Notes under the pieces: generated by a model
What the model saw: the letters and a program-made list of their open reading frames with translations, nothing else
What the model was told of the DNA's origin: nothing
Database searches by the model: none
Translations under genes and position numbers: made by a program
Part shown: positions 2,445 to 26,595 of the stretch, piece by piece
How positions within the stretch are numbered: position 1 is the stretch's first letter
Layout: every line of letters begins with the position of its first letter
DNA from: Planctomycetota bacterium
GTDB taxonomy: Bacteria; Planctomycetota; B15-G4; SIAN01
Length of the DNA: 41,063 nucleotides
Assembly: GCA_016872815.1 (NCBI GenBank)
Contig: VGYY01000004.1
Location: forward strand, 1 to 41,063
Reading direction: 5' to 3'

Positions 2445-3400
2445 CAGCGGTCCGCCAGGAGGCGTGCGACCTTCCGGTTCGCCACGCCGTCGGGATGGCC
2501 GTCGAGCGGTCCGACCCAGTAGCGCATCAGGTCCTCGTCGCGCGCGAACGCCTCGACCAGCGGCAGCGCCGGGATGGCGCGCTCGGCGCAGACGGCGGCG
2601 AAGCCGGCTTCGATCGACGCGAACGGGTTCAGGTCGGGCCGCGTCATGTAGGGATAGATCGCGACCCGGAAGCCGATGCCGGCGGCCGCGCAATCGGCCC
2701 GGATCGCGTCGAGCGCGCGGCGGATCTGCTCGCTGCCCTGGTGGTGCCACGCGCGCACGATCGACTCGACGTAGCCGTCGAGCGCGAAGCCCATGCGGCG
2801 CAGCAGGCCGCTCGCGTTCTGATTGGCCATCTGCAGCAGGGGCGAGCGGAACGGCAGGTCGGCCAGGCGGTCGATGGTGGCGTCGACCGGGATCTCCGAC
2901 CGGGCGAGCGCGCCGCTCACGTCATTGGCCACCATCACCCAGATCACCTCGGTGGGCGCCAGCGGCAGCACGCGCGTGCGCAGCAGGGTGGCGACGTTGT
3001 CGGCGTTGTAGCCGGGGATCCCGCAGTTCAGGACCTGCGCCGCCCGGCCGCGCGCGGCGAGCTCGGCGGCAAGCGCGACCGCCAGGGTGGCGTCCTCGGG
3101 GCAGCCGTTGCCGAAGGTGACCGAATCGCCGATCAGGGCGATGCGCGTCCGTCCCGTCTCCGGCGGCGGGAACTCCTCGCCGCGGAAGCCCTGCGCATTG
3201 ATGCGGACGAGCGCGCCCTTGTAGGTGGTCGTCCGGCCGGGAAACAGCAGGTGCGGCAGCCTGTCGACCGTCGATGTCGCGAACGGCGTCACGCCGCACG
3301 CGCCCACCTTCCCGCGCAACCAGAGGTCGGCGAGCGTGGCCGGGATCAGGCAGGCGATGGCGGCGAGGCCGAGGCGACCGAGGATCCGACGCGTGCGCAT
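2435..3400 (-). CDS. Membrane-anchored or secreted SGNH/GDSL-family hydrolase
   Basis: This 321-residue protein has an N-terminal hydrophobic segment (residues 9-25, signal peptide or anchor) followed by an SGNH hydrolase fold. Block I is IALIGDSVTFGNG with nucleophile Ser93. The oxyanion Gly lies in NCGIPGYN (about 125-132). Block III is VANDV (Asn159). The Asp/His pair is in LDGHPDG (Asp300, His302). Family knowledge: such proteins are esterases, lipases or carbohydrate O-acetyl/acyl esterases; the extracytoplasmic location and neighbouring envelope genes favour action on acylated glycans, but the substrate is inferred only. It is divergent from the GT39 gene, sharing a 59-bp promoter region, and convergent with the DUF255 gene, whose last codons overlap it. 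Confidence 0.85.
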   Translation of the reverse strand: MRTRRILGRLGLAAIACLIPATLADLWLRGKVGACGVTPFATSTVDRLPHLLFPGRTTTYKGALVRINAQGFRGEEFPPPETGRTRIALIGDSVTFGNGCPEDATLAVALAAELAARGRAAQVLNCGIPGYNADNVATLLRTRVLPLAPTEVIWVMVANDVSGALARSEIPVDATIDRLADLPFRSPLLQMANQNASGLLRRMGFALDGYVESIVRAWHHQGSEQIRRALDAIRADCAAAGIGFRVAIYPYMTRPDLNPFASIEAGFAAVCAERAIPALPLVEAFARDEDLMRYWVGPLDGHPDGVANRKVARLLADRCYP

Positions 3401-10312: not shown

Positions 10313-12286
10313 GTGAGCCGCCTGCGCGAACTGCTCGGCCCGGGCGGCCCGATCGCCGCGCGCCACCCCGCGTTCGAGGAGCGCGAGAGCCAGATCGTGA
10401 TGGCCGAGGCGGTCGACCGCGCTTTCCACGACCACGCGCGGCTGTTCGTCGAGGCGGGGACTGGGACCGGGAAGACCTTCGCCTACCTGCTGCCGGCGCT
10501 GCTCCACGCCGACCTGCCGGACCGTCGCGTCGTGATCTCGACCTGGACGCGCAACCTGCAGGAGCAACTGGTCCACCGCGACCTGCCGATGTTGCGCGAG
10601 ATCCTCGGCGTGCCGCTCGAGGCCGCGCTGGTGCAGGGGCGCGAGAACTACGTCTGCCGCCGCCGCGCCGAGCAGGCGCTGCGCCGCACCGATCTCCTGT
10701 TCGAGCACGTCCGTTCCGCCGGCGAACTGCAGCGGCTGGTGAGCTTCGCCGCGACCAGCCCGCAGGGCACTCGCAGCAGCCTCGACTTCGAGCCGCGCGC
10801 GGAGGCGTGGGCGGCGGTGCGGGCCGAGCGCGGCAACTGCCTCGGCGCGCGCTCGCCGTTCTTCGAGTCGTGCGCCTGGCAGGAGGCGAAGCGGCGCGTG
10901 CGGGAGGCCGGCGTGCTGGTGGTGAACCATGCGCTGCTGCTGGCCGACCTCAAGCTGAAGCGGGTCGGCGGGGCGGTGCTGCCGCCGTACGCCTACCTCA
11001 TCGTCGACGAGGCGCACCATCTCGAGGAGATCGCCGCCGAGCACCTCGGCGGGCGGGTGTCGCGGGCAGTGCTCGCCGCGGAGATGAAGCGCGCCGGGCA
11101 GGCGGTCGGCGCCGTCGTCGGCGACGCCCGGCTGGCCGTGGACGAGGCGCTCCTGCATGCGCGGGCGACGACGCAGGAGCTGTTCGAGGCGTTCGCCCGG
11201 CTGGCGGGGACGCGCCTGCAGGCGCCGGTGCCGGCCGGATTGCCGCTGCCGAAGGCGGCGCCGGAGGCGCTGCAGGAGCTGTCCGCCCGCCTGCTGCGGG
11301 TCGCCGAACACGAGCGCGACGAAGCGGTGGCCGCCGACCTCGCGGCGCGCGGTCAGGTGCTCGCGGAGCAGTCGCTCCATCTCGCTGCCGCCCTGGCGGG
11401 CAGCAGCGACGAGCGGGTCGCGTACGTCGAGCGGCAGGAGGCCGGCGGCGAGGTGTCGGTCTGCACGGCCCCGATCGAGCCCGGGCCGATCCTCGCGCGC
11501 GAGCTGTTCGCGCCGCTGCGCTCGGTGGTCCTCACCAGCGCGACGCTGGCCGTGGCGCCGGCGCCCGACCGCTTCTCCTGGCTGGCGCGCGGCTGCGGCA
11601 TCGCCGACGCCCGCCCGCTGATCCTCGCCTCGCCCTTCGACTACCGGCGCCAGGCGAAGCTGGTCATCGATCCGTTGCCCGAGCCGAACCAGCCCGACGC
11701 CTGGCTCGGCGCGATGATCGAACGGCTCCCGGGACACCTCGAGCGCTGCCACGGCCGCGCCTTCGTCCTGTTCACCAGCAGGAAGACGATGGAGCAGGTC
11801 GCCGACGGCGTGCGCGCCGCGGCCGATCGGCTCGGGATCGCGCTTCTCGTGCAGGGGCGGGGCCTGCCGCGCAGCCGGATGCTCGAGGAGTTCCGGCTGG
11901 CGCAGCCGGCGGCGCTGTTCGGGCTGGCGTCGTTCTGGGAAGGCGTCGACGTCCCCGGCCGCGAGCTGTCGCACGTGATCCTGACCCGCCTGCCGTTCCC
12001 GATGCCCGACCACCCGCTCGAGCGGGCGCGGAGCGAGCGGGCGGAGCGGCGCGGCCAGGACCCGTTCATGACGCTGTCGCTGCCGAAGGCGGTGCTGCGC
12101 TTCAAGCAGGGCTTCGGGCGGTTGATCCGGCGCAAGGACGATTCCGGCGTCGTGACCGTGCTGGACGCGCGGATCATCCAGCGGCGCTACGGCCGGCAGT
12201 TCCTCGAGGCGCTGCCCGACTGTCCGAAGGTCGTGCTGCGGGACGGCGAGGAGATCGACCTGTCCGAGGAGTCTTCGCGATGGTGA
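10313..12286 (+). CDS. DinG/YoaA/XPD-family ATP-dependent DNA helicase with altered Fe-S motif
   Basis: A 657-residue superfamily 2 helicase. Motif I is EAGTGTGKT (47-55), motif Ia STWTRNLQEQL (76-86), motif II VDEAHH (231-236), and the late motifs are FGLASFWEGVDVPG, RLPFPMPDHP and FKQGFGRLIRRKDDSG. Family members are 5'-3' helicases that unwind R-loops, forked DNA and damage intermediates, using an Fe-S cluster held by four Cys. Here Cys115 (NYVC), Cys176 (GNCLG) and Cys187 (ESC) are present, but the remaining position is Ser181, with the exact C-x4-S-x5-C spacing of the DinG C-x4-C-x5-C motif. The start is GTG at 10313 after GGGAGGGG. The stop overlaps the next gene by 7 bp. Confidence 0.88.
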   Translation: MSRLRELLGPGGPIAARHPAFEERESQIVMAEAVDRAFHDHARLFVEAGTGTGKTFAYLLPALLHADLPDRRVVISTWTRNLQEQLVHRDLPMLREILGVPLEAALVQGRENYVCRRRAEQALRRTDLLFEHVRSAGELQRLVSFAATSPQGTRSSLDFEPRAEAWAAVRAERGNCLGARSPFFESCAWQEAKRRVREAGVLVVNHALLLADLKLKRVGGAVLPPYAYLIVDEAHHLEEIAAEHLGGRVSRAVLAAEMKRAGQAVGAVVGDARLAVDEALLHARATTQELFEAFARLAGTRLQAPVPAGLPLPKAAPEALQELSARLLRVAEHERDEAVAADLAARGQVLAEQSLHLAAALAGSSDERVAYVERQEAGGEVSVCTAPIEPGPILARELFAPLRSVVLTSATLAVAPAPDRFSWLARGCGIADARPLILASPFDYRRQAKLVIDPLPEPNQPDAWLGAMIERLPGHLERCHGRAFVLFTSRKTMEQVADGVRAAADRLGIALLVQGRGLPRSRMLEEFRLAQPAALFGLASFWEGVDVPGRELSHVILTRLPFPMPDHPLERARSERAERRGQDPFMTLSLPKAVLRFKQGFGRLIRRKDDSGVVTVLDARIIQRRYGRQFLEALPDCPKVVLRDGEEIDLSEESSRW

Positions 12287-14394
12287 GCCTGCTCCTCATC
12301 GGGCTGGTCACGAGCACGGCGACGCCGCTCGACGGCGCCGCGAGCGCCGACGAGCGGGCGGCGCGCTGGCGCGATTTCCCGGTGTTCGTCTGGTTCCACG
12401 GCGGGCCGGCGCCGGGCCCGGTCGCGTTCGCCACCCTGCGGGAGGCGGGGCTCGCCGGCTGCAACGTCGAGGCGGCGTGGGACGGCGCGCGGAGCGCCGC
12501 CGTGCGCGCGGCCGGTCTCGATTTCTACGTCGATCACCTCGCCGGGAAGGGCGACCTGTGGCTGCGGCCGGCGCGGTTCGATCTCGACCGCGAGGCGTGG
12601 AAGGGGGACCTGTCCGGGTTCCGACCGTCGCGCCCGACGTCGCTGCTCGAGCCGGCGGCGCGCGGGCAATTGTTCGAGAAGGTCGAGGCCGGGCTGGCAC
12701 GCCATCGCGCGGCGGCGCCGCTCTGCTGGGTGCTGGAGGACGAACTCTCGGTCACGCGCGGCGTGAATCCGATGGACTACTGCTTCGCGCCCGCGACGCT
12801 GGCGGCGCTCCGCGCATGGCTCGCGGCACGACACGGAGCGATCGCGGACTGGAGGGCGCGACACGGCGGAACGTGGGATGACTGGAGCGAGTTCGTACCG
12901 CCGACCAGCGCCGAGGCCCGCCGCGCCGCAGCGGACCGGCCGCTGGCGGAAGTGCGGCTCGCTGCCTGGGCCGTCCATCGAGAGTTCATGGATGAAGCGC
13001 TGGCCCGGCTGCTGGTCGACCTCGCCGCGCCGGTCATCGCCGCTGATCCGGGTGCGCCGGTCGGCTTCACCGGGGGCAGCTTTCCCTCCGCGTTCGGCGG
13101 CTTCGACTGGGCGCGCCTGGCGCCGGCGCTGACGCTCCACGAACCGTACGAGACCGGTGCGGCGCCGGAACTGGTCCACGCCTTCAAGGGAGCGGGCGCA
13201 CGCGTGCTGTCGACGCTGTTCGTCCCGGATCAGCCGGCAGCCGACTGGGAACCGCGCGAGCTGCTGGCCCGCGTCGGGCGCGGCGACGACGGTGCCGTGA
13301 TCTGGTCGAGCGGGCCGCTCCTCACGGCGGACGGCAGCGCGCTGACCCGTGCCGGGCGGCGTCTCGCCGAGGAGGTGACGCAGGCGCGGCGGCTGCGGCG
13401 GGAGCTGGTCGACGCGGTGGCGGCCCCGCCGCGCGTCTTCCTCTTCTCGGGGATGGCGGCGGCCCGGGCGGGCTGGATCGTCGACTCCTGGGGTGACGGC
13501 AAGACCTTCCTGAACCGCCTCACATCGTACGAGGCGGACCACTCCTCGACCGCGGCCGCGCGCGAGGGCTGGGTCGAGTTGCTGCGCGCGGTCGGCGTGC
13601 CCTTCACGTTCTTCGACGAGCGCGCCGGGCTGCCGGGGGCGGCGATCGCCGATCCGCCGAGCGCGGCCGTCATCCTGACCGAGGCGTTCGCCGTATCGGA
13701 TCGCCTGGTCGGCGAGCTCGCCGCGTTCGTCGCCGCCGGAGGCACGCTGATCGGCGATGCGCACGCGGCGCTGTTCGACGAGGAGCTGGCGGGTCGCGAC
13801 TCCGGCGCGCTGCGGTCGCTCTTCGGCGTGGAGCGGCGCGGCGGCATCGAACTCGCCGACCTCGAGCCCTCCGTCGCGCTCGATGCGCCGCGGACGGGAG
13901 CGCTGCGGCTGGCGGCGGCGGAGGGTGAACTGCTCGCGGCGGCTGCCGGGACGCGCCGGACGAGCCTCGGCTACGAGCGAACCGCGGCCCCGGGGCGCGC
14001 CCTCTATCTCGACGCGCGCGTGGGTGGCTGCGTCCGCGGCGCCGAACGCGTGGAGGCGCTGCGAGCGACGGCGGCGGCGCTGCGCGGCTGGCTCGGCCAC
14101 CCGGTCGGAGCCGCGGTCGGGGGCGATGCGATCGAGCTGGACGCCGCCTCGATCGGTGCGGTTCACCTGCATCGGCTGCAGCGGCGCGGTCGCGAACGGC
14201 TGCTGGTGGTCGCCGGCTCCGGGTTGACCGAGCCGCGCGAGATTCGGCTGACGCGCACGCGTGGCGGCTTCGCTGCCGTCACGCCGATCGGGGCGGCGCC
14301 CGCCGCCGCGACCGCAGGCGCACCGACGGCCCACGCGTCGATCGCCTTGCAGCTCGGGCCGGGCGGCGCCGCGCTCATCGAACTCGTCGATTGA
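12280..14394 (+). CDS. Secreted GH42-like (beta-galactosidase-type) glycoside hydrolase family protein
   Basis: The 704-residue protein has a short N-terminal hydrophobic signal (1-22). Its N-terminal half follows GH42-type TIM barrels: WVLEDELSVT (150-159; Glu153 or Glu155 as candidate acid/base), then PMDYCFAPATLAALRAWLAA, the W..RHG.TWDDWSEFVPPTS segment, and a later HEPYETGAAPELVHAFK that may carry the second carboxylate. The second half includes a GATase-like trimerisation domain (ILTEAFAVSDRLVGELAAFV, AAGGTLIGDAHAALFDEE) and a small beta domain. Known family members cut beta-galactosides and related glycans; the substrate here is unknown. The start ATG lies inside the helicase gene (ATGGTGA, 7-bp overlap). 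Export to the periplasm is inferred from the signal segment. The family is very divergent, so non-enzymatic roles are possible. Confidence 0.7.
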   Translation: MVSLLLIGLVTSTATPLDGAASADERAARWRDFPVFVWFHGGPAPGPVAFATLREAGLAGCNVEAAWDGARSAAVRAAGLDFYVDHLAGKGDLWLRPARFDLDREAWKGDLSGFRPSRPTSLLEPAARGQLFEKVEAGLARHRAAAPLCWVLEDELSVTRGVNPMDYCFAPATLAALRAWLAARHGAIADWRARHGGTWDDWSEFVPPTSAEARRAAADRPLAEVRLAAWAVHREFMDEALARLLVDLAAPVIAADPGAPVGFTGGSFPSAFGGFDWARLAPALTLHEPYETGAAPELVHAFKGAGARVLSTLFVPDQPAADWEPRELLARVGRGDDGAVIWSSGPLLTADGSALTRAGRRLAEEVTQARRLRRELVDAVAAPPRVFLFSGMAAARAGWIVDSWGDGKTFLNRLTSYEADHSSTAAAREGWVELLRAVGVPFTFFDERAGLPGAAIADPPSAAVILTEAFAVSDRLVGELAAFVAAGGTLIGDAHAALFDEELAGRDSGALRSLFGVERRGGIELADLEPSVALDAPRTGALRLAAAEGELLAAAAGTRRTSLGYERTAAPGRALYLDARVGGCVRGAERVEALRATAAALRGWLGHPVGAAVGGDAIELDAASIGAVHLHRLQRRGRERLLVVAGSGLTEPREIRLTRTRGGFAAVTPIGAAPAAATAGAPTAHASIALQLGPGGAALIELVD

Positions 14395-14434
14395 GCGGGT
14401 CGCGCGCGTGACCGGGGGCCCCCCGCGGTGGCCC

Positions 14435-14475
14435 GAAAAGAAACCCGGCGGAGAGCGTCGTCGCCCTCCGCCGGG
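14435..14475 (-). terminator. Rho-independent terminator of the porin gene
   Basis: Read on the minus strand, a 10-bp perfect stem CCCGGCGGAG (14466-14475) / CTCCGCCGGG (14444-14453) with a 12-nt loop is followed by a TTTCTTTTC tract (14435-14443). It begins about 56 bp after the stop codon of the porin gene. It is one of two intrinsic terminators with a U-tract seen in the window. Confidence 0.85.
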
Positions 14476-14531
14476 ACACGCATCGAATGTTGGCCGTTGC
14501 GCCGGTGGGCGCCACGGCCGGCGTCAGCCGC

Positions 14532-16031
14532 TCAGAAGCGGGTGGTCGCCGCGAAGTAGCCGTAAACCATGTCGCCCGAAACGCCGGTCATGTCGTGGAA
14601 ACCGTTCCCGGCGAAGAAGTAACCCACGCCCATGCCGACCGAGGTCGACTTGCTGCACTCCATGGTGTAGGTGAGGTCCGCCTCCTGACCGAGAGCCTTG
14701 TTGCCGCCGCTGGTGGCGTCGGAGTAGTTGTAACCGACGAATCCGGCGTCGGTCGTCGCCCGGCGGTTCCAGTGGTAGCCAAGGCAGACCGTGCCGTCGC
14801 CCATCTTGTAGCTGGTGCCCACCGTCCAGTGCTGGATGTTGGACCAGCCGAAGAAGTCGGTCAGGCCGAACCAACCGTGCAGCGACGGCGCGATCTGCAG
14901 GTAGTTCTCGCTCGCATCGTCGCCACCGGTCGCGTAGTCGTAGCCGACGTGGAAGCTGTCGAAGAACTCGATATTGCTCGGCTTGAAGCAGGCGCCGGCG
15001 TGGATCGCGTAGGTGCCGAAGCCGAAGTTGTGGGTCCGGTCACCCATCACCTCGCCGAACTGGGTGACGCCTTCCACGTCGAAGCAGATCCCACCCATGT
15101 CCTCGCTGGCCCAGCGCGCACCGTAGGTGGTGAAGCGCGTCCGGCCGACGGCGCCGGCGTCGGAGTAGTTCATGTCCTCGAGGTGGAAGACGTAGAGATC
15201 GACGCCGCCGACGCCGCTCATCGACGTCGTGTAGTAGGCGCCGTAGAGATCGGCGTTGTCGACCGTGCTGACGCCGCCCGCCGGCGTCAGTTCGCCGCCG
15301 GCGAAGTTGTCGCTGTCGTTGAGACGCAGGGCGACGATGGTCCACTTGCCGGCGCCGTCGCCGAGGTCATTGTCAAAACGGAAGCCGTCGAACGACGTGC
15401 GGCCCAGCCGCCAGTCGTCGTCACCGATCACGCGCTCCTTGCCGAACTCGATCGCCTGGCGGCCGGCGGTCATGTCGACCCCGGTGTTGTAGATGTCGGC
15501 GACCTTGAGCACGATGCGCTGGGCATCGAAGCTCTCACCCCCGGAGGAGGAGGCGTCACCGGTGAGGCGCGTCGTGTCGCCGAGCCCGGTCGCGGTGTTG
15601 TCACCCCAGACGTCGGCGACATGCATCGTGATGCCGACCGAGGTCTTCTCCGAGACGCGGGCATCGAATCCAAGCTGCGCCTCGGCGCCGAACGAGTTGA
15701 CGTCATCCTTGCCGACCGAGCTGTGGTAGTTCCCCCAGTAGTCGCCGCGGATATGGATGAGGCCGCCGATGTTGATGCCGTCAGTGCCCGGCGCGCTGAT
15801 GTTCAGCCGGCGCGGCTCGCGCAGCGCCTCCGCCGGGCTGTTGCGGACGGCACCGTCGAGGCGCGCCTCGAGGGTCGCCGCCGCCGGCGACTGGAGCGAG
15901 TCGATCTGCGCGCTCAGCGCCGCGACCTGCTTCTTCAGCTCCGCGATCTGCTGGTCGCGGCTCAGGGCCTCCTGCCCGAAAGCCGACCCAGCGCTCAACG
16001 CCAGGATCGAAATCGCACCTGCCGTACGCAT
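14532..16031 (-). CDS. Outer-membrane porin, alginate-export (AlgE-like) type
   Basis: The 499-residue protein has a signal peptide (1-19, cleavage after SAFG), a coiled-coil stretch (IAELKKQVAALSAQIDSL, about 27-45), and a long beta-barrel region with alternating aromatic strands ending in a C-terminal Phe, the usual signal for outer-membrane assembly. The segment GRQAIEFGKERVIGDDDWRL plus GRTSFDGFRF matches the signature of alginate-export/AlgE-type porins. Such porins pass anionic polysaccharide or other solutes; the N-terminal coiled coil suggests trimerisation or cell-wall anchoring. SD AGAGGAGGAG lies 5-6 nt before the ATG. A strong terminator follows. Its composition (Gly/Asp/Thr-rich, low Arg) differs from its neighbours, as expected for an abundant surface protein. 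Transport substrate unknown. Confidence 0.82.
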   Translation of the reverse strand: MRTAGAISILALSAGSAFGQEALSRDQQIAELKKQVAALSAQIDSLQSPAAATLEARLDGAVRNSPAEALREPRRLNISAPGTDGINIGGLIHIRGDYWGNYHSSVGKDDVNSFGAEAQLGFDARVSEKTSVGITMHVADVWGDNTATGLGDTTRLTGDASSSGGESFDAQRIVLKVADIYNTGVDMTAGRQAIEFGKERVIGDDDWRLGRTSFDGFRFDNDLGDGAGKWTIVALRLNDSDNFAGGELTPAGGVSTVDNADLYGAYYTTSMSGVGGVDLYVFHLEDMNYSDAGAVGRTRFTTYGARWASEDMGGICFDVEGVTQFGEVMGDRTHNFGFGTYAIHAGACFKPSNIEFFDSFHVGYDYATGGDDASENYLQIAPSLHGWFGLTDFFGWSNIQHWTVGTSYKMGDGTVCLGYHWNRRATTDAGFVGYNYSDATSGGNKALGQEADLTYTMECSKSTSVGMGVGYFFAGNGFHDMTGVSGDMVYGYFAATTRF

Positions 16032-21415: not shown

Positions 21416-21511
21416 TCACTGCGGGAAGCCGAGGCAGCCCTCGTTGACCTCGCAGTTGCGGAAGTTGGCGTTCAGGACCTCGAGCGCATCCATCAGGTCA
21501 TCGCAGGTCAT
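21416..21511 (-). CDS. 31-residue Cys-containing microprotein coupled to flavin monooxygenase gene
   Basis: The ORF begins with ATG overlapping the monooxygenase stop by 4 bp (ATGA) and ends 30 bp before a strong terminator, so it lies in the same mRNA and is positioned for reinitiation. The product is acidic: MTCDDLMDALEVLNANF, then NCEVNEGC, ending LGFPQ. It has three Cys (residues 3, 20 and 26) and a predicted amphipathic helix at 4-17. No database family is recognised. Possible roles are a metal- or cofactor-binding helper, a stabiliser of the enzyme, or a peptide substrate. The chance that an ATGA-positioned 32-codon ORF is spurious is not negligible at this GC content, so confidence is moderate. 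Confidence 0.5.
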   Translation of the reverse strand: MTCDDLMDALEVLNANFRNCEVNEGCLGFPQ

Positions 21512-22671
21512 GTCGGCCCGGCGGGTCGCTCGCGCGCGGCCTGCCACGCCTCGTAGCGGGCGACGAAGGCCGGGTCGCGCCGGCGCAGGTTGTCGAGGTC
21601 GATCTTGCCGCTGCGGAACATGCAGTCGACGGCGAACGGCAGCGGTTCCAGATGGAGCTTCGCCGCGGCGTCCTCGAACCAGGTGGTGCTGGCCAGCGCG
21701 TTCTCCTGGTAGGCATCGACGACCGGCTTGCGCGTCGCCGCGAAGTCGGCCAGCGCTTCGCTCACGCCGGCATGGCGGCCGCAGCTCTCGTAGAGGGCGA
21801 TCGCGTCCTCCATGGCCAGCTTGGTGCCGGAGCCGATCGAGAAGTGGGCGGTGTGGGCCGCATCGCCCAGCAGGACGACGTTCTCGCAGGTCCAGGCCGC
21901 GTTCTTCACCAGCAGGAACTGGATCCACTTGCTGCGGTTGCCGACGAGGCGCTGGCCGCCGAGATCGCTGGCGAAGATCCCTTCGAGGCGCCGCAGCGTC
22001 GCATCGCCCGCCACCTCCTCCAGCCGGTCGAAACCCGCCGCGCGCCACGGCTTCTCGCCGCATTCCACGATGAACGTGCTCTGCGCGGCCGAGAAGCGGT
22101 AGCTGTGCGCCATGAACAAGCCCTCCGGCGCCTGCCGGAAGGTCAGCGTGAGGCCGTCGAACGGCTGGGCTGTGGCCAGCCAGATGTAGCGGTTCCTGCG
22201 CGCGTCGAGGGTCGGCCGGAACGCCTCCTTCCAGCTTTCGCGCACGGTGCTGATCACGCCGTCGGCGCCGACGAGCAGGTCGCATTCGCGTTGCAGCACC
22301 CGCGGCTCAGGCACGTTGCTCTCGAAGCGCAGGTCGACGCCCAGCTCCCGGCAGCGCTCCTGCAGCAGCCGGTTCCACGTGATCCGTGCCACCCCGGCGA
22401 AGTGGTTGCCGCCGACGTCGATCCGCTGGTCGCGGTGGACGATGACGACCTTCTCCCACGTTTGCACCAGCCCCTCGGCGCGACGGAACAGCTCGTCGTC
22501 GCAGCGGCGCAGCAGGTCGGTCGTCTTCCGCGAGAAGACCACGCCGAAGCCGAAGGTGTTGTCGGCGGCGTTCCGCTCATGGACGGCGATGGCGAGGCGC
22601 GGGTCGCGCTTCTTCATGAGCAGCGCGAACCAGAGCCCGGCGGGGCCGCCGCCGATGACGGTGATCTTCAT
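21508..22671 (-). CDS. FAD-dependent monooxygenase, anthraniloyl-/salicylyl-CoA hydroxylase-like
   Basis: The 387-residue enzyme has the group A flavoprotein hydroxylase layout: GxGxxG dinucleotide fold VIGGGPAGLWFALLMKKRDP (5-24), the DG motif VGADGV (134-139) and the GD motif VVLLGDAAHTAHFSIGSG (265-282). The N-terminal phrases FGFGVVFS near 41-47 and GNHFAGVARITWNRLLQ, plus C-terminal FRSGKIDLDNLRRRDP, match the monooxygenase domain of anthraniloyl-CoA monooxygenase and salicylyl-CoA 5-hydroxylase. Those enzymes hydroxylate aromatic CoA thioesters using NAD(P)H and O2. No CoA-ligase gene is visible, so the substrate here is open. Start ATG 22671 lies 10 bp after the TatD-family gene; a 31-residue ORF follows with a 4-bp overlap. 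It belongs to a four-gene operon with EboA and EboB. Confidence 0.87.
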   Translation of the reverse strand: MKITVIGGGPAGLWFALLMKKRDPRLAIAVHERNAADNTFGFGVVFSRKTTDLLRRCDDELFRRAEGLVQTWEKVVIVHRDQRIDVGGNHFAGVARITWNRLLQERCRELGVDLRFESNVPEPRVLQRECDLLVGADGVISTVRESWKEAFRPTLDARRNRYIWLATAQPFDGLTLTFRQAPEGLFMAHSYRFSAAQSTFIVECGEKPWRAAGFDRLEEVAGDATLRRLEGIFASDLGGQRLVGNRSKWIQFLLVKNAAWTCENVVLLGDAAHTAHFSIGSGTKLAMEDAIALYESCGRHAGVSEALADFAATRKPVVDAYQENALASTTWFEDAAAKLHLEPLPFAVDCMFRSGKIDLDNLRRRDPAFVARYEAWQAARERPAGPT

Positions 22672-22681
22672 TGCGGCGGGC

Positions 22682-23578
22682 TCAGTTCGGCACGCCGGCG
22701 GCTTGCTTCGGCGTCTGGCCGCGCAAGACCGAGTTGTCGTGGAACAGCCGGCTCTGGTCGATCGCCATCGGGCGGGTCAGCGCATCGACGTCGATCTGCC
22801 CGCTCTGTCCGTAGGCGTGTAGCGCGTTGCCCCAGCAGGCGGCCTCGATCGCCGATTCGTCGACGCCGCGCTCGCGCATCAGCGCCGCGGTCTTCGGCAC
22901 CGACAGCGGGTCGGAGACGCCCCAGTCGGCCGAGCTGTCGACGATCACCTGCTTCGGACCATACTTCTTCACGATCTCGACCATCCGCTCGCTGCCCATC
23001 TTGGTGTGCGGGTAGATCGTGAACGCCGCCCACGCGCCGCGGTCGAGGACCGACTGCACCGTCTCCTCGTTGTTGTGGTCGATGACCAGCTTGTGCATCG
23101 GCACCTTGCACTCGGCGGCGAGGTCCAGGCTGCGCACGATGCCGCGCTTCTTGTCGCGGTGCGGCGAATGGACCATCACGACCAGATCGTTCCGCGCGGC
23201 GAAGTCGAGCTGCCAGGCGAAAGCGCGCTCCTCGGCCGGGGTGATCTCGTCGTAGCCGATCTCGCCGACCGCGACGACGCCCTCCTTCATCGCGAAGCGC
23301 GGCACCAGCTCGAGCACCTCCTTCGCCAGCGGCTCGTTGTTGGCCTCCTTCGAGTTGAGGCCGATCGCACAGAAGTGGTGGATGCCGAACTGCGCGGCGC
23401 GGAAGCGCTCCCAGCCGACCAGACTCGAGAAGTAGTCGAGGAACGCGCCGACCTGCGTGCGCGGCTGGCCGAGCCAGAAGGCCGGCTCGATGACGGCGCG
23501 GATCCCCGCCTTCGCCATCGCCTCGTAGTCGTCGGTGGTGCGTGACGTCATGTGCACGTGCGGATCGAGGAAGAGCAT
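22682..23578 (-). CDS. eboB: TatD-family metal-dependent hydrolase of EboB type
   Basis: The 298-residue protein is a TIM-barrel amidohydrolase of the TatD family: HxH in FLDPHVHMTS (about residues 7-9), the Glu in VAVGEIGYDE (about 104), His in VMVHSPHRDKKRG, His in LVIDHNNEETV, and Asp in VIVDSSADWGVSDP. All metal-binding positions appear conserved, so hydrolytic activity is likely. The EboB proteins of bacterial and algal ebo clusters are TatD-like, and adjacency to an EboA-domain gene supports that assignment. In cyanobacteria, ebo genes help export the scytonemin monomer to the periplasm. Start ATG 23578 overlaps the EboA stop by 1 bp (TGATG). The gene precedes the flavin monooxygenase gene by 10 bp. 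Confidence 0.87.
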   Translation of the reverse strand: MLFLDPHVHMTSRTTDDYEAMAKAGIRAVIEPAFWLGQPRTQVGAFLDYFSSLVGWERFRAAQFGIHHFCAIGLNSKEANNEPLAKEVLELVPRFAMKEGVVAVGEIGYDEITPAEERAFAWQLDFAARNDLVVMVHSPHRDKKRGIVRSLDLAAECKVPMHKLVIDHNNEETVQSVLDRGAWAAFTIYPHTKMGSERMVEIVKKYGPKQVIVDSSADWGVSDPLSVPKTAALMRERGVDESAIEAACWGNALHAYGQSGQIDVDALTRPMAIDQSRLFHDNSVLRGQTPKQAAGVPN

Positions 23579-24387
23579 CAGCGCGCTCCTGCGGCGCCGG
23601 CCCGGCGGCGCTCCTGCTGCAGCGCCGCGGCGGCGCGCGGCCCGTCGGGGTTGGCGGCGGCGATCGCGTTGGCCGCGTCGAGCTCGCCTGCGATCGACGC
23701 GTCGGCCCGTGCGCCGCCGCACGGACCGACCACGTTCCACAGGTCGGCCGGCACCGGCCGCCCGGCGCTGCGCCGCTCGTCGGCGAGGTCGAGCGCCATG
23801 CGCGCCAGCTCCTCGTCGCGTCGCGCGGCCAGCCCCTGGATTCGCGCCACCGGCGCACCGATGAAGAGCGCCTTCATCACGCACTGGCGCCACGCGATCG
23901 GGTCGAACCAGCGCCACGGATAGGGCGTGTCGCAGGCGACGGCCTCGAACACGCTGCGCATGTTGCTGCGGCAACCCTCGCCGGCGCGCCACGCGAAGCG
24001 CTTCGGCTCGGGCAGCAGCGCCAGCGAGCGGTAGAGGGCGCAGAGCTCGCCCTCGTCGGCGTACTGGAACGCCGACTCGAGCGCCGCCTGACCACGGTCG
24101 TTGGCCCGTTGCGGGTGCGCAAGGATCAGCCGGACGCGCACCGCCTCGAGCAGCGTCCAGCGCTCGGGGTCGAGACCGTCGGCGGCGGCCCGGAAAGTCA
24201 TGCGCAGCGCCGGGCTCGGCTGGAGCGGCTGGCGGCGGGCGATCCGCGAGGCGGCCGAGAGCAGTTGCCCGAAACGCGCGTCGTCGACGTCGCCGGCCTG
24301 TTCCGCCAGCGCCCGGGCCAGCCAGTCACGTCCCGCGGGCGCGAGGCGCGCCTGCACCATCGAGTCGATCAGCGGCGTCGGATCCAA
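23578..24387 (-). CDS. eboA: EboA-domain protein
   Basis: The 269-residue protein shows the EboA family core: LPEPKRFAWRAGEGCRSNMR, VFEAVACDTPYPWRWFDP, then WRQCVMKALFIGAPVARIQG and the terminal ERRSAGRPVPADLWNVVGP. EboA is a helical protein of unknown biochemistry found in ebo clusters of cyanobacteria and other bacteria, and in a eustigmatophyte algal locus. The start is placed at TTG 24387 (SD CAGGGGA upstream); ATG 24360 would remove nine residues. It is the first gene of the operon EboA-EboB-monooxygenase-microprotein, divergent from the ECF sigma gene over about 170 bp. The other ebo genes (prenyltransferase EboC, EboD-F) are absent from the window, so this is a minimal set. Confidence 0.85.
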   Translation of the reverse strand: MDPTPLIDSMVQARLAPAGRDWLARALAEQAGDVDDARFGQLLSAASRIARRQPLQPSPALRMTFRAAADGLDPERWTLLEAVRVRLILAHPQRANDRGQAALESAFQYADEGELCALYRSLALLPEPKRFAWRAGEGCRSNMRSVFEAVACDTPYPWRWFDPIAWRQCVMKALFIGAPVARIQGLAARRDEELARMALDLADERRSAGRPVPADLWNVVGPCGGARADASIAGELDAANAIAAANPDGPRAAAALQQERRRAGAAGAR

Positions 24388-24557
24388 AGGCGCGGTCCCC
24401 TGCCCCGCGGCCACCCTCCCCCCGGCGCCGCGAAAACGGCGCGATGATAGGCAGCGCCACGCAGTGCGGCTGTCAGCGGTTTGCGCGTCTGCGGGTACGT
24501 CCTGTTGGCCGCCCGCCGTAGGAAGCCACCCGGCGGCCGCCACGAGCGCCATTTGCC

Positions 24558-25217
24558 ATGACCGATCCCACCGATGTCGAGCGGCTGCTCACCAGCCACC
24601 GTTCCCAGGTCGACCGCCTGGTCTGCCGCCTCGTCGATCCGGCCGACCGTGATGACGTGACGCAGGAGCTCGCGCTGGCCGCGTTGCAGCGGCCGCCTCG
24701 TTCACCGCTGGCCTGGCCGGCGTGGATCGCCACGACGATCCGCAACGTGGCGGCGAAGCGGTTGCGCGGCCGCGCGCGCCGGCGGCAGCGCGAGCAGGCG
24801 GCGGCGCGAGCAGGCGGCGGCGCTGCCCGAGCGGCTTCCCTCCAGCGCGGAACTTGCCGCTCGGCTCGATCTCGAGCAGGCGCTGCTCCGTGCCGTGCGC
24901 GAGCTGCCGGTCGGCGAGCGCGACGTCGTGCAACTGCGCTTCTTCGAGGGGCTCTCGGCGGCGCAGATCGCCGTGGCCCTCGGGCTGGGCGAGAGCACGG
25001 TGCGGGCGCGCTTGCAGCGGTCGGTCGAGACGCTGCGCGCGCGGCTCGATGCCGGGCAGTCGGGCGGGCGGCGGGCGTGGATGGCGGCGCTGGCGCCCTG
25101 GTCGGTGCCGACCTTCCTGCTGCCGGTCGCGCCAGCGGCGGGCCTCGCCGCGGCGGCGGTGCTGGCGGTCGGCGCGGCGCTCGCCTGGCCAGCGCTGGCG
25201 ACGCTGGACGACAGTGA
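24558..25217 (+). CDS. ECF sigma factor, 5' part, frameshifted after region 2 by a tandem duplication
   Basis: The 219-codon frame starts as an ECF sigma factor: region 2 is visible from LLTSHRSQVDRLVCRLV through RDDVTQELALAALQRPP to PAWIATTIRNVAAKRLRGRA (about residues 9-75), including the region 2.2-like DxTQE block and the W..TI.RN.. segment. After about residue 83 the frame becomes Arg/Ala-rich nonsense. The natural continuation (region 4) lies in the +1 frame from about 24820. A 16-bp perfect tandem repeat at 24788-24819 accounts for the shift. As written, the product would lack promoter -35 binding and be inactive. It is divergent from the EboA operon. Whether this is biological or a sequencing/assembly artefact cannot be decided here. 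Confidence 0.7.
   Translation: MTDPTDVERLLTSHRSQVDRLVCRLVDPADRDDVTQELALAALQRPPRSPLAWPAWIATTIRNVAAKRLRGRARRRQREQAAARAGGGAARAASLQRGTCRSARSRAGAAPCRARAAGRRARRRATALLRGALGGADRRGPRAGREHGAGALAAVGRDAARAARCRAVGRAAGVDGGAGALVGADLPAAGRASGGPRRGGGAGGRRGARLASAGDAGRQ
24788..24819 (+). repeat. 16-bp tandem duplication causing a +1 frameshift
   Basis: Two exact copies of GCGCGAGCAGGCGGCG stand head to tail (24788-24803, 24804-24819), followed by a partial third start (GCGCT). With one copy, the frames of the upstream sigma region 2 and the downstream region 4 join into one continuous frame: 24558-26595 minus 16 bp equals exactly 674 codons. Confidence 0.95.
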
Positions 25218-26595
25218 CGCGGCTGCGCGGCCACCGCCGTCGGCGCAGCTCGCGCATGGCGAGGGACCGCACGACGAGCCGCCGCCGCTCGCCCTGCCGG
25301 CCGGTGTCGCCGCCGAGCGGTCGGTCGTGCCGGGACGCCAGGACTCCGCCGCGGACGGCGCTGCCGGAGACATCGCGGCGGGTGCGGGCGAAGGCTCCGC
25401 GACCCCGCCGCCGCCCGCGCGGCTCGTGCTGCGCTGCGTCGACGCGGCCACCGGCGTGCAGTTGCCGATGTGGACGTGCCGGGGGGCGAGCGAGACGCGC
25501 TTCCTCGAGCGGACGCTCGGCGTGGTCGGGTCCGACCGCTTCGCCATCACTCCGGGGCGCTGGGACTTCCACTTCATCGCGAAGGGGTGCGAACCGTTCC
25601 TGCTCGGACCGCTCGATCTCGCGGCGGGCGAAGAGCGCGACCTCGGCGCGATCCCGCTGACGCGCGGCAGCGGTCGCATCACGGGACGCCTCGATCGCCT
25701 CGGCTCCGCTGCCGGCAAGCCGGCGTGGGTCGAACTGCTCGGGGACGGTCGCGCGCCCTGTTTGCGCTGCGATCCCGCCACCGGGGCGACCCCGCCGGAG
25801 CCGGTCGGATCGCCGAGCTGGCCGCCGCCGCCGGAGTCCGGTTGCTGCGGCTGGTTCGCCGAGCGCTCGGTGGTGGAGGTCGACGCCGCCGGCCGCTTCG
25901 CCTTCGAGAACCTCGCCGGCGGCACCTATCACCTGCGACCGTTCGACGGGCGCCATCCGGTCCACGCGACCACGGCGGTCGTGGTCGCCCGCGGCGGCCA
26001 GTCGGTGGCCGAGCTCGCGCTGGCGCCTCCGGTGGAATTGCTGCTGACGCTGCGCCAGCCAGGCGGTCAGCCTTTCGTCGGCCGCTGGTGGCCGAACAGC
26101 CAGGACGAACCGCCGCCGATCCACTTCGACCTCGAGTTCGAGACGCTGGCCTTGACGCTCGACATGGGCGTCGACCTGCATGCGTTGCGCTCGCTCGCCG
26201 GGCCGCCGCCGCACGCGGGGCTCGGTTCGCCCGACTCCGCGAGCACGGTGGATCTTGTTTTCGTCTCCACCTCGATCGGCTTCGGTTGGCACGACTTGCC
26301 CTCCGATCGCGAGCGCGCGGCCGACGAAGCGCTCGACCCGCCCGTCGCAACGCCGGGCTTCTCCGGCAGCGAGTTCACGGTTGAGCGGGTCGCGCCTGAC
26401 CTCTTCCGCGTCCGGCCGTTGCCCGCCGCTCCGATCCGCTTTCGCCTCCGCTGCGCCGACTTCGCCAGCGAAAGGATCGAGGTCGATCTCGCCGACCCGG
26501 CGAACCACCACCTCACGGTCACCCTGCAGCTCGCACCGGACTCCGGGCCGCCGCCGCCCACCGGCGAGGTGATCGTCGTCGAGAGGGACGGGTAG
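24895..26595 (+). CDS. Sigma region 4 + membrane helix + carboxypeptidase-regulatory-like domains (3' part of fusion)
   Basis: This 566-residue frame opens at GTG 24895, but conserved coding extends upstream in frame to about 24820. Residues 1-50 form sigma region 4: LPVGERDVVQLRFFEGLSAA, then IAVALGLGESTVRARLQRSV (helix-turn-helix). A hydrophobic helix at about 72-103 follows, then a long extracytoplasmic part of beta-rich carboxypeptidase-regulatory-like modules, e.g. GSGRITGRLDRLGSAAGKPA and GRFAFENLAGGTYHLRPFDG. Such C-terminally extended, membrane-tethered ECF sigma factors are known from planctomycetes and are thought to be controlled in cis by the outside domain. If the upstream frameshift is real, this part could be made only by reinitiation. 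No anti-sigma gene is adjacent, which fits an in-cis design. Confidence 0.75.
   Translation: MRELPVGERDVVQLRFFEGLSAAQIAVALGLGESTVRARLQRSVETLRARLDAGQSGGRRAWMAALAPWSVPTFLLPVAPAAGLAAAAVLAVGAALAWPALATLDDSDAAARPPPSAQLAHGEGPHDEPPPLALPAGVAAERSVVPGRQDSAADGAAGDIAAGAGEGSATPPPPARLVLRCVDAATGVQLPMWTCRGASETRFLERTLGVVGSDRFAITPGRWDFHFIAKGCEPFLLGPLDLAAGEERDLGAIPLTRGSGRITGRLDRLGSAAGKPAWVELLGDGRAPCLRCDPATGATPPEPVGSPSWPPPPESGCCGWFAERSVVEVDAAGRFAFENLAGGTYHLRPFDGRHPVHATTAVVVARGGQSVAELALAPPVELLLTLRQPGGQPFVGRWWPNSQDEPPPIHFDLEFETLALTLDMGVDLHALRSLAGPPPHAGLGSPDSASTVDLVFVSTSIGFGWHDLPSDRERAADEALDPPVATPGFSGSEFTVERVAPDLFRVRPLPAAPIRFRLRCADFASERIEVDLADPANHHLTVTLQLAPDSGPPPPTGEVIVVERDG

Follow-up and report, generated by a model that had tools for sequence, protein, structure and literature searches.

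A 16-bp tandem duplication, probably a recent slippage event, breaks a membrane-tethered ECF sigma factor gene in a planctomycete assembly

We found that, in an uncultured planctomycete, a gene encoding a membrane-tethered ECF sigma factor is broken by an exact 16-bp tandem duplication, and that its two open reading frames join into a single one when only one copy is counted. A recent spontaneous slippage duplication that nulled this one gene is the best explanation and, in our judgement, a probable one. The window, as the whole stretch of analysed DNA is called here, comprises the 41,063 bases of contig 4 in a planctomycete assembly with a size of 4.2 Mb, 470 contigs and 94% completeness. The features discussed below are the following.

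24558-26595, + strand: complete gene of the membrane-tethered ECF sigma factor, interrupted by the duplication (from the one-copy frame and profile matches)
24558-25217, + strand: 5' ORF as assembled, 219 aa, sigma region 2 plus a tail that is out of frame (Pfam Sigma70_r2, 7.4e-07)
24788-24803, + strand: first 16-bp copy, GCGCGAGCAGGCGGCG, identical to the second
24804-24819, + strand: second 16-bp copy, the 16 surplus bases (either copy could be the 'extra' one), without counterpart in the congener ortholog
24820-24823, + strand: GCGC that prolongs the period, the microhomology flanking a single copy (period-16 match 24788-24823)
24895-26595, + strand: 3' ORF as assembled, with region 4, the membrane helix and the extracytoplasmic beta-domains, 566 aa (Pfam Sigma70_r4_2, 1.9e-11)
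23578-24414, - strand: divergent neighbour of the EboA family (NCBIfam NF035938 EboA_domain, 1.1e-46)

The unit GCGCGAGCAGGCGGCG is present as two exact head-to-tail copies at 24788-24819, confirming the perfect 16-bp tandem duplication claimed in a preliminary description of this DNA. The period-16 match is longer (36 bp, 24788-24823) and repeats a 20-bp stretch at a 16-bp offset; it extends four bases past copy 2 because the 20-bp copy has GCGC at both ends. The 41,063 bases of the window contain no other exact tandem duplication whose unit is at least 10 bp long, and in 40 Markov-simulated windows no duplication of a unit of at least 16 bp arose. On these two grounds a chance origin of the duplication was rejected.

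When one copy is counted the gene measures 2022 nt, or 674 codons with the stop, and encodes a protein of 673 aa, with region 2, region 4, the membrane helix and the extracytoplasmic domain in a single frame, exactly as the preliminary description had proposed. That description had also placed the loss of frame in sigma region 2. The frame does change at the duplication, but the site is the linker after region 2, whose Pfam match ends at residue 75; the duplication corresponds to codons 77-82 of the one-copy frame, 3' of region 2 and within the sigma2-sigma4 linker. Codon-usage scores are positive in frame 2 until the duplication and then in frame 0 to the end of the gene, and the coding signal of the 5' ORF ends at the duplication. 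The 3' ORF starts at GTG 24895, inside region 4, and no ATG, GTG or TTG lies upstream of that codon in its frame. The main practical value of the finding lies in annotation: both ORFs belong to one gene, and naming them as two proteins is unwarranted.

The class of the protein was defined from the one-copy frame, in which Pfam places Sigma70_r2 at residues 10-75 and Sigma70_r4_2 at residues 102-154. The joined protein scores 66.2 bits against TIGR02937 (sigma70-ECF), for which the cut-off is 42.9, and a profile comparison matched it to the solved ECF factors SigL, SigE and SigW over approximately residues 6-163. It has regions 2 and 4 without a region 1 or region 3 domain, the make-up of an ECF sigma factor (sigma-70 group 4). 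As assembled, sigma2 and sigma4 do not lie in one translated polypeptide and come together only if one copy is counted; judged from its sequence, the gene is a broken allele of an ECF gene rather than a working member. Furthermore, a hydropathy peak of 2.18 at residues 181-199 of the one-copy protein marks a single membrane helix, and this C-terminal helix and an extracytoplasmic part are fused to the sigma domains, as in membrane-fused ECF factors. Between sigma4 and the membrane, neither Pfam nor NCBIfam found an anti-sigma or zinc-finger domain. ECF sigma factors tethered to the membrane are a known kind and very common in Planctomycetota.

A structure model was obtained with AlphaFold2 for the ortholog from the congener G002, not for the window protein, with a mean pLDDT of 58 (low overall) and values of about 80 in the sigma domains and beta-domains. 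The model predicts helices to residue 79, a low-confidence (disordered) stretch at 77-90 and sigma4 to residue 157. A helix follows at 177-193, and beyond it a long disordered spacer leads to beta-sandwich domains at 267-479 and 598-646. With this model, Foldseek matched the sigma part to SigE and SigL, and the predicted beta-domains to pilin and adhesin domains of the Cna-B type, with low whole-chain TM-scores in both cases. In addition, Pfam CarboxypepD_reg was found in the extracytoplasmic part of relatives. In the intact protein the C-terminal part would probably tether the sigma domain to the membrane, and proteolysis or a signal would then free that domain, a function proposed by analogy with IutY and ECF52 (PMC8999054). 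The sensor part also exists unfused, since a congener encodes a beta-domain protein with its own membrane helix and without a sigma domain (G001 contig C56, approximately 14001-15185 of the locus, - strand). Many ECF-sigma paralogs per genome, with open frames of about 500-1800 aa and a large C-terminal part, were seen in the genome of the window (G000), in G002, G026 and G054 and in many Planctomycetota; a literature search found no experimental study of this long-ORF paralog family.

Relatives were found when the GTDB contig collection was searched at the protein level with a four-sequence alignment as query; the 3' ORF alone as query found none there. These relatives are named MAGs of Planctomycetota, and the cultured Pla86 is one of the more distant. 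The congener G002 (JAEUIC010000035.1) carries a positional ortholog, 48% identical, in one 682-codon open frame. Its linker has no 16-bp repeat and aligns without gaps to the one-copy window protein. The locus is syntenic with that of the congener because EboA, TatD-like and FAD genes lie beside the sigma gene in both; the EboA-like, TatD-like and FAD-monooxygenase proteins of G002 are 68%, 87% and 75% identical, respectively, to the window neighbours. In the window, the EboA-family, TatD-like and salicylyl-CoA hydroxylase-like/VioD-like FAD genes (21508-24414, - strand) form a conserved block that recalls ebo metabolite-traffic clusters.

The same domain layout is encoded in two further genomes, G006 and G069. 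Among 109 related sigma loci, sigma2-sigma4 aligned in one unbroken piece in 102, and none was split into two frames in the linker. A second search listed about 150 matches in 71 genomes with no internal stop, and among the matches listed only the window gene breaks in the linker. Copy number in relatives, the comparison that the preliminary description had suggested, was thus single, in one open frame in the G002 ortholog and with a linker break in none of the 109 loci. On this comparative evidence the single copy is the ancestral state, since the G002 ortholog is unduplicated between the same neighbours and no sigma locus of the 109 is split in the linker.

The age of the break was approached by leave-one-out conservation, scored over the columns where the other three proteins agree. 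Agreement was 85.5% for the one-copy window protein and 84.8% for the intact G002 ortholog, and 94% versus 91% in the sigma part. By this measure the rest of the gene is undecayed, with no relaxed constraint. Conservation is not lowered compared with the ortholog, suggesting that the break is very recent, or else missing from most cells. The species is known by the two-copy state alone (one assembled sequence), and one versus two copies would alter the frame.

Direct repeats flanking a unit are the standard geometry of slippage, and the one-copy sequence has such a 4-bp GCGC microhomology at its breakpoints with 16-bp spacing. The exact head-to-tail copies, the GCGC at both ends and the single copy in the ortholog are together the marks of a replication-slippage duplication. 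Equal microhomology is expected in 6% of random 16-bp duplications gene-wide and in 41% in this low-complexity GGC-rich stretch, so the microhomology lends mild support to slippage. We infer that the tandem duplication in this GC-rich linker-coding stretch arose when replication slipped between two GCGC sites spaced by 16 bp. The duplication would shift sigma4, the membrane helix and the sensor part out of frame with sigma2. The two-copy allele would be a null allele in the assembled strain: it would yield sigma2 followed by a nonsense tail, and the most that could come from the rest would be a detached sigma4-membrane piece. Slippage across the 20 bp of direct homology between the copies could also delete one of them and restore the frame at a low rate; because of this shared homology the duplication appears to be a revertible mutation, not an evolved switch. 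If real, a short slippage event would have removed a complete membrane-to-promoter signalling path in one step, and, with sensor and sigma factor joined in one polypeptide, the null would leave no unbalanced sigma factor. The preliminary description had offered a fresh mutation as one of three options, and it is the best supported of them, given the one-copy ancestor, the intact relatives and the undecayed remainder of the gene.

A scan for other frame-breaking duplications covered 2.1 of the 4.2 Mb of the genome and 0.23 Mb of congeners. On contig C74 (L126) of the same genome, the 13-bp unit CGCCGCCTTTCAC occurs twice plus 6 bp, exactly, at 2999-3030, and with one copy counted, two coding ORFs merge into one of 395 codons. 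The homolog in a congener (G001 contig C56) is also frame-split near the same place. Two further duplications elsewhere in the genome were dropped as frame-breakers, one of 11 bp that sits between two separate genes and one of 14 bp that shifts the frame the wrong way. On contig C53 (L105) of the same genome, a 17-bp unit is repeated about 4.4 times (75 bp, 10678-10752), apparently upstream of a lipoprotein-looking ORF, and this repeat is a better candidate for copy-number variation than the duplication at 24788-24819.

If the surplus bases were a sequencing or assembly artefact, the cells would have one copy and an intact gene, and the extra 16 bases would stem either from a PCR or template-switch artefact where read coverage was low or from overlapping contig ends that were joined wrongly. 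We regard this as unlikely, if by no means far-fetched. The assembly is fragmented into its 470 contigs, intact orthologs everywhere are the expectation if the gene is truly intact, and the frame-breaking 13-bp duplication on C74, where one copy likewise restores the frame, belongs to the same assembly. However, the gene on C74 may be a case of real decay, as it is frame-split in the congener homolog too. A typical read is much longer than the 36-bp array, whose longest repeated word is 20 bases, so that assembly with larger words would not generate the array from single-copy reads. Not a single N occurs in 2.1 Mb of the assembly, so there is no sign of gap scaffolding, and the GCGC microhomology at the duplication lowers the likelihood of an artefact further. 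Repeat collapse is a commoner assembly error than false duplication. A literature search for papers on false short duplications in metagenome assemblies gave no useful match. The two-copy sequence could instead be functional as it stands, with ribosomal frameshifting yielding the full protein or with the two ORFs acting as separate proteins of a split sigma factor, and this we consider extremely improbable. Both frames run on unbroken to either side of the duplication, a common situation at 72% GC, but the sigma2 frame contains no X XXY YYZ slippery heptamer from its start to 25217, the first start of the second frame cuts into region 4, and relatives encode one continuous protein. A programmed ribosomal frameshift gene was rejected on the missing heptamer and the single frame of the relatives.

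Phase variation would have the 16-bp unit gained and lost at a high rate, with the membrane sigma factor off in the two-copy state and on in the one-copy state as a form of bet-hedging; this is decidedly improbable. The unit is not a multiple of three and one copy restores the frame, and precedents are described: reversible gene-silencing short tandem duplications in pneumococcal capsule genes (Waite 2001, 2003, as cited in PMC4022640) and, in one account, tandem promoter repeats acting as switches in tuberculosis promoters (PMC12817950). Against this, there are two copies only, the G002 ortholog lacks the repeat and no other linker break occurs in more than 100 homologs, so that any instability shows no sign of selective upkeep. 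Phase variation has been defined as reversible switching at a single locus at a rate detectable without selection, a definition that excludes loci without shown spontaneous reversion (PMC11868660), and about 1e-5 is the published upper limit for the reversion of similar pneumococcal insertions of up to 9 bp (PMC4022640). An evolved phase-variable switch is mechanically possible and is not supported; the corresponding option of the preliminary description finds no footing in a repeat of two copies that is not conserved, with no array in the ortholog and no sign of switching. The wider idea, that a planctomycete switches a one-protein sensor-sigma device on and off through gain and loss of a 16-bp copy in the linker, and that sigma-factor phase variation operates in an environmental phylum, is very improbable. 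The finding would matter more only with a standing mixture of one and two copies.

The recent slippage duplication favoured here can be set beside spontaneous tandem duplications in the pneumococcal type 3 locus, cap8E and tts (Waite et al. 2001, 2003, as cited in PMC4022640). According to that citation, a short tandem duplication within an ORF breaks the frame of these capsule genes, as here, and losing one copy can restore it; switching is reported there in culture, whereas the window gene is one assembled sequence with no evidence of switching. Among membrane-fused ECF sigma factors, IutY (ECF243) and ECF48/52/53 (PMC8999054) resemble the window gene in that, C-terminal to sigma2-sigma4, the same polypeptide continues with a membrane helix and then a long extracytoplasmic part. 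They differ from the window protein, which has no anti-sigma or zinc-finger domain by Pfam and whose extracytoplasmic part is a series of CarboxypepD_reg/Cna-B-like beta-domains. The window gene thus resembles the IutY/ECF52-like factors in layout and is not filed in their ECF groups because an anti-sigma domain match is absent. In architecture it also resembles the planctomycete ECF paralogs with sigma, membrane-helix and beta-domain parts (in G002, G006, G069, Pla86 and others): unlike the window gene, those among the matches listed are each in one open frame and none has the duplication, and their domain order is the same as that of the window gene.
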